Assembly (NCBI GenBank): GCA_025617745.1
Contig: CM046859.1
Span: 29,656,744 to 29,720,743 of the forward strand
Length of the DNA stretch: 64,000 nt
DNA from: Heliocidaris erythrogramma
Lineage: Eukaryota > Echinodermata > Echinoidea > Camarodonta > Echinometridae
Direction: 5' to 3'
Positions 541 to 39,300 of the stretch are shown one piece after another. Below the pieces are notes generated by a model, which saw nothing but the letters and a program-made list of their open reading frames with translations, did not search any database and was not told the DNA's origin. The stretch's first letter is position 1. Every line of letters begins with the position of its first letter. The position numbers were made by a program, and so were the translations under genes.

Positions 541-27826
<27,286 letters not shown>

Positions 27827-36059: not shown

Positions 36060-36359
36060 AAGAATCAGATGTTCCTCTGTCGAAGGGTTTCTCTGCTTGA
36101 GCCAAATTTGACCAAATGCACCTTTCTGAAAGAGGGGCATCTACATCTTAGTAAGACAGCATCTCCACAGTTGCATCCATCTTCACCTCCACGTCCACTG
36201 TCAAGCTCCTTTCTGTCATCACCGTTGGAAACCTGGAGTTCAAGGAGGATGGCAACTGCCAGTGGTACTGGCTCTCGCATTGTCCCTCAGGATTTTGATT
36301 ATTTCCTAGTGCTGGATTTTGAAGCAACTTGCTTGGAGAAGGAAAGGATAGAACCTCAG
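36060..36359 (+). CDS. ERI3: ERI3 exon with start codon and DFEAT motif
   Basis: The acceptor CATTTACAG follows a long (CT)n pyrimidine tract at 36003-36044. The ATG at 36069 opens the frame, and the exon ends IEPQ/GTATGG in phase 0. The first nine bases are 5' UTR if 36069 is the start. Confidence 0.85.
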
Positions 36360-39300
36360 GTATGGCATTTTAAGTAGGCCCGAGTCGTATCGGTTATTTT
36401 GTAAACTGGGGATTGACGGCTTTGCTCCAGTCGAACACCGGTGCACTGATAAATTGATGGACCAAGAATAATTTACATGAGGTTTAGCAATGTCCATTTG
36501 ACTTGCTATTTTTAAGGACGGGTTTGTTGCGAACGTGTGTAATTGGGTTTTTACAGACGTGTATCAATCATCAATCAGATATGATTATTTACGTCTGGGA
36601 CTGACCTTTAACGTCACCATCCGAAAGACGTGACTCAGTCTCGAACCTGGGTCCGCTAAATCAGTTTATAACTTCCACTGGTAGCTGGATTACAGGCGCA
36701 TGCCACAACGCCCAGTTAACGAAGTCTTGCATTTAATTTGAACATAAACTTGGCCATGTAAAAGTTGGTTAAACACTTCAAAAGATTTGCTTAAATTTCA
36801 CTTTAATTGTAGCTCAAAGCTGAAAACTCATGCCACAATTCAATCTCCAGTAAAAGACATTTGTATTCTTTCATTTGATTTTTAGTTGGATTCCTGTTTA
36901 AAAAAGTTGGTTTTGGTGTCAAAATATTGAATTTCTCTGAATCCCTTGTTTCTCAAACATGTATTTCTCACGTGAATCAGGTGATTCGCGATCGCGATAG
37001 CAGATTTTACAATCACGATCGCGACCATGAGTCACGTAACTATACATGTTTGAGTAGGAAACTGAATAATCAAAGAAATTCAATAATTTGACTCCAAAAC
37101 TGAAATTATTGCAATAGGAATCCAATAAAAAATCATATTAAATGAAAGAATATACATGTAAATATCTTTTACTGGAGAAATGAATTGAGGCATGAGATTT
37201 TAGCTTTAAGCTAGAATAAAAGTGAAATTCAAGCCAAGGTTTGAAATGTCTAACCAACATTAACTTAGTAGAATTTATGTACATATCAAGTGCTAGCACC
37301 TTTGATGAATGGAATTAGATGATTTCGATCTAAGATTGTTTTCTCCGGCTTCACTTTTTCACCACGCAAATTAGAATCAAGTGGCGATATGTTCGCGTAC
37401 CAACAACAACTCGCGAAATTCACCAAAATTAAATCCTCGCTTCTTCTTTTCTTTACACATTTACATAAATTTTCATCGATGCGCTGGTTTTGCCAAAAGA
37501 GCACCGGGGATTGATACCTTGATCGAGGACCGGTATACAAACCGATATGACTCGGCCTTAATTCTAAGTGAGCTAGAAATTTGCTGTTTTATATTCTTAA
37601 TGTATCTTTGTTATTGCTGTTGTATGGAGAAGGTTGTTGCTTTTGACTCATTTATTACTGAATACTCTTATTCCCCCATTCTTACAGTAATAAAGGAACT
37701 ACCCAGTTCATGTAGGAAACAAGTTGAGATATTTTTCAAGATCTTAAGTGCCTATTTGTGTTGTATGCATATATTTTCTACAGACTAAACACTAGTGAGA
37801 AAGACACGAGGGAGCAGAGTACAATTTAGCACTGAACATCTCTGGAAATGTTGAAAATATAAAAATCTCTCTGCGGAAATATATTTTTTATATCCTTTTT
37901 CTTATTGCTGTTGTTGTTGTTTTCCAACGCTCATATGACTATATTTATCGATTCGTATTCATAGTTTTAAAAGTATCTTTCTTTTTTTTTTAGCAATTTA
38001 TTGTTATTTTTTGCCAAATTAATAGGAAGTGATTGAGTTCCCAGTGCTGAAAGTGAGTGGTAAAACCTTTGAGACAGAATCAACATTCCATCAGTATGTA
38101 GAGCCTCAGGTCCATGGAGTTGGTGAATTCTGCACTCGGGTAAACATGCAATTTGCTTGTAACTTCGTTCGTATTTGTGTTTTTTTTATTTCTATGCGGG
38201 TTCATTAAATAAACTTGTACAGAAATCCTGTAATTACAGAAAAAATTGTTTGTCATTAATAAAACACATCACAGTCAGTGTTCGTTTTTTCCTTGATACT
38301 TTTCTGTATCTACATGTATAGTACAATTGTGTTTTTTCATTATAGCCCAGCATGCTGAGATAATATAAAGATTGATCATTTCAGGTCTAAATATCTATGG
38401 ATAAACATGAATATTATGTCCCTTTTAGTGAAATGAGATCTGTTTTATTTATTTATCAGCTCACAGGTATAACCCCTGACATGGTCAAAGGTCAACCAAC
38501 ATTTCAAGATACTTTGCAGGTATAGTATGAAATACATTTATCTTGTTCAATAATATTCCTTCTTTTGTCAAACTTATACATGTACACTGTACTGAATGGA
38601 TTGTTTTGGAGTTGCAAGACTGCATGATAATTCTATTTGATAAAGCCTAGCCTGGAAAAAAAAACACCAAAAAACTTAGTCTGGCTAAGCTTTGGGAGTC
38701 CCATGTCCCATCGAGTCTAAAGATATAGTGTACTCAGACTAGACACAGTTAGTAGGACATGTAGAGGGATTGTGGGAGCTAGTTTAGATAGACACTTCTG
38801 ATCTTCTCATAAACATTGAAAACCCTCACTTCACCTGGAATCTATCCTGTACAATGCCTTGCAGATTATTCAAGCTGTTCCTAAAAGAGGAGCGAAAACT
38901 GGTGTGAAACGTATATACCTATACATGTAACTGGTTTACAAAGTTTTCGTTTATGTCATATTATTAATAGTTATTCCACATTTGGATGGAGCATGAGGGC
39001 CTCGTAAACCCAGACATAAAATTCATCTTTGTCACCTGTGGAGATTGGGATCTTAAAACCATGTAAGTACAACGAGAACTACATGTTATATAATTATGTC
39101 TTGTTTCACCATTCCAATGTCAAAACAACATACGAATATGTACTGTTATTTTCTTTTTTTCTGTCCGCCATAGGCTATACAATGTGTTGTTGTTGTTGAT
39201 TAGTGTTACATGGCAATCAGTCAATTTTAACTATTATCACCAACAATTTTTTTCGTTTTATTTTATCTGAACAGATTTTAATCATCTAAAATAATACAAT

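Follow-up and report, generated by a model that had tools for sequence, protein, structure and literature searches.

An intron of an echinoderm gene carries, in antisense orientation, a short stretch that reads like the 5' end of SRP (7SL) RNA. Is this stretch the head of a SINE that was derived from the SRP RNA of its host, or does the resemblance have another cause? The window, meaning the whole stretch of 64,000 nucleotides that was analyzed, corresponds to C7:29656744-29720743 of a 1.06-Gb assembly of 26 contigs. The SRP-like letters reported in a preliminary description of this DNA were present on the minus strand from 36716. The Rfam family RF00017 (Metazoa_SRP) gave a match of 29.4 bits at 36716..36658(-) (E 6.1e-6 when 451 bases are compared with 4227 families), which is less than the gathering score of 70 of this family, and a scan of the whole window against Rfam at the gathering threshold gave no entries. 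We are highly confident that the stretch is a copy of a young, high-copy echinoderm SINE, a retrotransposon that is non-autonomous. Its head is the 5' domain (1-44) of the host SRP RNA, and a segment with a B box, a body and a tail of LINE type follow.

The SINE copy in the window and the repeat around it

The copy occupies 36535..36716 on the minus strand and covers positions 1-175 of the consensus of a repeat family, named family A, with three substitutions and one 7-nt insertion. Read on the minus strand from 36716, it consists of ACTGGGCGTTGTGGCATGCGCCTGTAATCCAGCTAC, then CAGTGGAAGTTATAAACTGATTTAGCGGACCCAGGTTCGAGACTGAG, then the body and tail, with an ACACAC end at 36535. The SRP-derived head (36671..36716, minus strand) aligned with SRP 1-44, the Alu 5' domain H2-H3-H4. 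Comparison with SRP RNA showed no similarity in the middle segment that bears the B box (36634..36670, minus strand), and the copy alignment showed that the body and tail (36535..36633, minus strand; TCACGTCTTTCGGATGGTGACGTTAAAGG ... CCCAATTACACAC) are common to a second family, family B. By sequence, the SINE has candidates for both an A box and a B box, picked by comparison with the box consensus. The candidate A box TGGCATGCGCC was positioned by alignment at 36695..36705 (minus strand), within the SRP-derived part, and the candidate B box GGTTCGAGACT at 36637..36647 (minus strand), in agreement with the earlier statement that a B box and then non-SRP sequence follow the head. No second SINE copy was detected within the 64-kb window.

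The SINE lies antisense in the intron between two exons on the plus strand. One is at about 36264-36359 (QDFDYFLVLDFEATC; QDFDYFLVLDFEATCLEKERIEPQ), with an approximate left edge and GT at 36360, and the next, read from its frame as EVIEFPVLKV, starts from about 38026. By its motifs the gene is probably of ERI3 type, and with the name understood in this way the earlier placement of an SRP-headed SINE in an ERI3-type intron of an invertebrate was upheld. The accompanying remark that nothing else adjoins the element had to be amended. The SINE lies within a larger repeat of ~1.2 kb (36375-37562, no strand assigned), whose similar ends GGCC(C)GAGTCRTATCGGTT are inverted, as judged by eye, and which has an internal palindrome at 36726-37296 (74%). 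L014, L015 and L020 contain this repeat again, each with the SINE at the same position, and L021 and L032 contain it in part. Because the SINE keeps the same position in these recurring flanks, it most likely entered one ancestral repeat, and the intron received both together. The window copy was probably carried in by this inverted-repeat element and not inserted by itself.

Elsewhere in the window, a 965-codon open frame at 12999-15896 (-) encodes, close to its end, a zinc finger of the FYVE type (Pfam 1.5e-11). The assembly also includes a mitochondrial contig, C24 (12,905 bases), on which COX1 was recognized by its Pfam profile. The order of C24, read by eye, was ND2, 16S gap, COX1, R, ND4L, COX2, ATP6, COX3, -S, ND3, ND4, H, ND5, -ND6, CYTB, gap, E, which is presumably the echinoderm arrangement of the echinoid type. 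Its COX1 read best, again by eye, with AAA=N, ATA=I and AGA=S. This contig points to an echinoderm host, probably a sea urchin.

The head and the SRP RNA of the same genome

A search of the genome with the SRP RNA family gave at least 18 full-length matches over the cut-off and at least 5 short ones (26 scored, the best of 11,405 first-look candidates). At least 12 of the full-length matches were located on C16 (41246598-41251229 and 41697545-41716167), mostly ~2 kb apart. The 5 short matches were SINE copies, among them L039, which has the first 64 nt only. Positions 1-36 of the family A consensus from 30 copies were identical to SRP RNA 1-36 in seven of the eight SRP genes compared, and the eighth gene (L001) showed one difference in its first 36 positions. 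SRP 1-44 could be aligned with consensus 1-46, and after position 36 the SINE reads CTAC[CAG]TGGAAGT compared with CTAC[T]TGGAAGT in SRP RNA. The local score of the head against SRP RNA was 39, compared with at most 17 in 1000 letter shuffles. The comparison of SINE 47-120 with SRP 45-298 gave a score of 8, which was equalled in 915 of 1000 shuffles; the SRP similarity stops at position 44. An SRP origin of the B-box segment found no support, its score lying within the shuffle range. The head of family A derives from the host SRP RNA.

The alignment with the species' own SRP RNA that had been proposed as a check was also made for the window copy. Its 36-nt stretch within the head (36681-36716, minus strand) matched SRP 1-36 at 35 positions, the single difference being an A in place of G at position 16, which lies at a CpG, while in the rest of the window (all positions except 36601-36800) no ungapped match exceeded 21 of 36. 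A short chance match, which the preliminary description had allowed for, is contradicted by these values and by the 36 of 36 positions of the consensus, counted from position 1. The "one missing C" noted there is no deletion, as the Rfam animal consensus and the genome's own SRP RNA both have TCCAGCTAC, and GTTGTGG in the head is likewise the SRP sequence of the same species. Since the head carries these letters of the genome's own SRP RNA, and at least 45 matches to the element were spread over at least 16 contigs of a chromosome-scale assembly, contamination by human Alu, already considered unlikely, was ruled out.

For the classification of family A, the 5' part from 7SL RNA that marks SINE1 was found, with 36 of 36 positions identical to the own SRP RNA and SRP 1-44 aligned. 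The 5' and 3' regions of an Alu domain with the S domain deleted were not found together, as SRP similarity reached only position 44. Nor was the tRNA-derived head of a SINE2 found, the first 46 nt being SRP RNA. Judged by where its head comes from, family A belongs to SINE1, but it lacks the 3' part of the Alu domain and its B box is foreign.

The head of family A alone (83 or 49 nt) folded into hairpins 4-23 and 28-43, and the SRP model additionally pairs head positions 1-3 with 44-46. In the SRP Alu 5' domain, their counterparts are H3, H4 and H2, respectively. With the body included (122 nt), the best fold of family A retained the second hairpin only, and in family B the 46-nt head formed only the first hairpin and the 85-nt fold neither. 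Compared with shuffles, the fold energies gave z values of -0.46 to 0.51, none clearly better, so the case for a structure comes from homology. The SRP 5' domain is the part that binds SRP9/14. The predicted fold of the head is compatible with SRP9/14 binding in family A, and less so in family B. For the 8 sources of family A and the 4 of family B that were scanned, Rfam listed no tRNA match at E<=1, so the putative tRNA origin of the B-box segment is based on the box and the arm.

Copies, families and mode of spread

In family A, the SRP head is followed by a non-SRP segment that includes the B box, then by the body and tail, and finally by an (AC)n repeat. The consensus, built from the 30 best matches to the window copy and not from a random sample, is 186 nt long including AC repeats, and its tail letters before the repeat end are ...ACACGTCTGTAAAAACCCAATT(AC)n. 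For a 34-mer over the head and the junction, 1.06 Gb contained 2,321 exact occurrences and 4,221 occurrences at <=3 mismatches, with none for the reversed control. A 35-mer from the B box into the body occurred 4,833 times at <=3 mismatches (control 0). The genome-wide junction count suggested earlier thus returned a recurrent, fixed head-to-body junction, and a hallmark of a SINE, numerous short copies that are dispersed and agree in their ends, was found. A DNA search with the element accounted for the matches on separate contigs mentioned above (40 scored of 1,073 candidates). Among the first 30 loci, seven (L026-L029, L033, L036 and L037) have a copy that agrees with the consensus at 100% of the matched positions, and family A is therefore young. 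It comprises two subfamilies, with AGCTACCAGTGG/GGTCCCAG and AGCTAACAGTGG/GGTCCCCAG, respectively.

Copies with an exact body and an inexact head were also compared. They numbered 21, at 20 loci picked by eye among the listed C1 places that had an exact body and no exact head. Eighteen of them started at consensus 1-3, including L058 and L051 with poor first letters and the near-duplicates L055 and L056, and the other three started at 37, 42 and 63. An older tRNA-headed form with the same body was found neither in these copies nor in 15 further loci (L069-L083), which were retrieved with the body of one divergent old copy (L069 being that copy again) and of which L070, L078 and L081 had a broken or shortened front. 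The SINE copies in L059, L078 and L082 began 12-23 nt after TATA-like letters and had G+C-rich flanks. Moreover, an old copy at L001:517-738, 75% identical to the consensus, lay ~0.8 kb before an SRP RNA gene and had an extra hairpin stretch (AGAACTCCAAAGGAGTTCT) in its body. This part had 24 matches in the genome, of which one other spanned it completely, with 81% identity and without the hairpin letters. Exact-pattern scans for relatives in viral-contig and genome-contig collections gave 0 matches, and a search of published papers for six sequence strings gave 0 occurrences.

Family B was found through an 81% match next to a reverse transcriptase (RT) gene (L092). It has SRP 1-27, exact in 7 of 10 copies, then ACCAAGCTGACGGGGCAGT, a more tRNA-like arm (GTGCGGGTTCGAGCCCCGGTCAC), and the body and tail of family A. 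The tail letters are ...ACACGTCTTAAAACCTAACTA(TTCA)n, and six of the 10 copies have a (TTCA)n end. Family B was counted at 143 places at <=3 mismatches (control 0), and Rfam gave SRP with 26.4 bits and no tRNA in each of four copies. Five of the 10 copies (L108, L111, L112, L114 and L117) had common flanks on both sides or one side, with CCCGGGATTTACA before and, in four, also TTTTCGCCA... after the element, which indicates that part of family B multiplied inside a larger repeat of its own.

Target-site duplications (TSDs) were evaluated in 48 full copies, with 16 locus ids omitted (arrays, shared host repeat, near-duplicates); a run that kept these loci covered 74 copies, and its control was spoilt by the arrays. 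Perfect TSDs of 13-15 nt were present in L033, L034, L038 and L080, the four of 48 copies with >=12 nt (control 0.08), and TSDs of >=6 nt in 13 of 48 (control 2.73). Thus, the duplications that characterize a SINE occurred in a minority of copies. CR1/L2-type LINEs make short or variable target duplications, and the observed pattern would fit such a CR1/L2-like mode. Sea urchin SINE2 families are listed with CR1/L2 LINE partners in the available part of PMC3747384, and we regard CR1/L2 as a candidate partner type for family A. A LINE partner sharing the SINE tail was looked for in 23 RT loci, a small fraction of the 31,670 first-look candidates, and none was found; the tail was compared with 12 RT loci and 12 downstream stretches, one of which belonged to an RT locus already included. 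L092 was rejected as a partner, since the tail match there comes from a family B copy on the opposite strand. One fixed junction was observed in thousands of copies and TSDs in a minority of them, together with tandem arrays and another family that has this layout.

Several other explanations were weighed against this SINE family. The element could be an ordinary tRNA-headed SINE with an A-box region that is SRP-like by chance or convergence, as its B box resembles that of a tRNA, in family B even more closely (GCGGGTTCGAGCCCC), and sea urchin SINEs are listed as tRNA-derived (PMC3747384, available part). The agreement of all 36 consensus positions with the own SRP RNA from position 1, compared with at most 21 elsewhere in the window, refutes this for the head and leaves it standing for the middle segment only, and for the whole element it is very improbable. 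Retrocopies and chimeras of small RNAs are known (PMC7245038, available part), but a processed SRP pseudogene or a single template-switch chimera without any SINE family hardly deserves consideration, given 4,221 junctions genome-wide and matches on at least 16 contigs. It is a good deal more conceivable, while still unlikely, that the copies spread chiefly by DNA means, through tandem duplication or carriage by other elements, and not by retroposition. Twenty of 100 listed exact junctions (of 2,321) lay within 1 kb of another, in 6 clusters, and head-to-tail SINE arrays, possibly the start of a satellite, were found at L044 (C1:7720400-7721700; period 181 bp) and L045 (C1:35967600-35969700). 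In addition, the window copy and at least three others share one host repeat, half of the 10 family B copies have common flanks, and 35 of the 48 copies have no TSD of >=6 nt. However, the 100 junctions represent 86 separate places, four copies have the perfect TSDs described above, and in the 30-copy alignment the flanks were mostly different while the 5' end and the AC-rich 3' end were common to all.

The most serious of these alternatives, though we consider it doubtful, is that the element already stands in a repeat library as a sea urchin tRNA-SINE (SINE2) with its SRP head overlooked. Several such families are listed in the available part of PMC3747384 (SURF1/SINE2-4c_SP, SINE2-3, -4b, -6 and -8_SP). 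Against this, no 7SL SINE outside vertebrates was found in the titles and abstracts searched.

Proposed origin and comparison with known SINEs

Under the preferred explanation, an SRP-headed SINE family, the head starts at the first SRP position and is joined to a B-box segment of tRNA-like character, after which come a body and a LINE-type tail that ends in a microsatellite. Pol III would transcribe the SINE from a hybrid promoter, with the A box from SRP RNA and the B box from the tRNA-like part. The 5' end of the SINE RNA may fold like the SRP Alu 5' domain and bind SRP9/14, which could park the RNA on ribosomes beside nascent LINE reverse transcriptase, and the LINE enzyme would then prime at the shared tail and insert a new copy. 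The copy in the window would most likely be a passenger of the ~1.2-kb inverted-repeat element.

We think it likely that family A represents the first 7SL-headed SINE lineage outside vertebrates, born independently, cut to the SRP 5' domain (44 nt) and driven by a hybrid promoter (SRP A box, tRNA-like B box). If this is true, a third independent SRP-headed birth that keeps the 5' domain only argues that SINEs are selected for that module, that is, for SRP9/14 docking on ribosomes, and a high-copy family in an echinoderm would turn the recurrent recruitment of SRP RNA by SINEs into a general phenomenon. The trimmed head would also separate promoter supply from SRP9/14 docking, two ideas that are confounded in Alu. 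Another sequence supplies the B box and nothing but the 5' domain remains of SRP RNA, which opens the docking idea to a direct test. Furthermore, family A would serve as a lineage marker and is a source of 181-bp tandem arrays.

A paper of 2024 stated 7SL-headed SINEs only for primates, rodents and hagfishes. No report of a 7SL SINE in an invertebrate was found in a literature search of titles and abstract openings, mostly of papers open without subscription. The hagfish family is presented in the available part of PMC7245038, the source for the following comparisons with 7SL-derived SINEs, as the first evident SINE1 outside Euarchontoglires. The Alu-domain content given there for SINE1 is human 7SL 1-63, 76-83 and 267-299 in Euarchontoglires, and the 5' 96 bp and a 3' region in hagfish.

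According to that text, SINE1-1_EBu of the hagfish Eptatretus burgeri resembles family A in that the 7SL 5' end forms the head, an older SINE contributes the rear part and the 3' end is a microsatellite, and it is a lineage apart from mammalian SINE1, like the echinoderm family. SINE1-1_EBu has the 7SL 5' 96 bp and 3' region (the whole Alu domain), an RTE tail and ~17-bp TSDs, whereas family A has only SRP 1-44, a non-SRP B-box segment and a different body and tail. Alu and B1, as described there, share with family A the 7SL 5' domain first and the A box followed by the B box, and an SRP9/14-binding fold is expected. However, 7SL sequence makes up the whole of Alu and B1, and both are driven by L1, while family A is a chimera with an (AC)n end, and its second promoter box does not come from SRP RNA, unlike those of Alu and the hagfish family. 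The Tu-type SINEs of tree shrews and the bushbaby GarnAlu, as cited in PMC7245038, are 7SL-/tRNA-derived chimeras like family A, which join 7SL-derived with tRNA-derived SINEs inside the mammalian SINE1 line; in family A, a single head combines two promoter boxes of different origin, and the host is an echinoderm. The sea urchin SINE2 families (SURF1/SINE2-4c_SP and others) belong to the same host group and are listed in the available part of PMC3747384 as tRNA-headed, a comparison by description only. Finally, the V-domain spread by the MER6 DNA transposon (PMC6887750, available part) offers a parallel to the carriage proposed for the window copy, in that a SINE sequence was amplified by riding on a DNA transposon, although the SINE and the transposon are different and the hosts are mammals.
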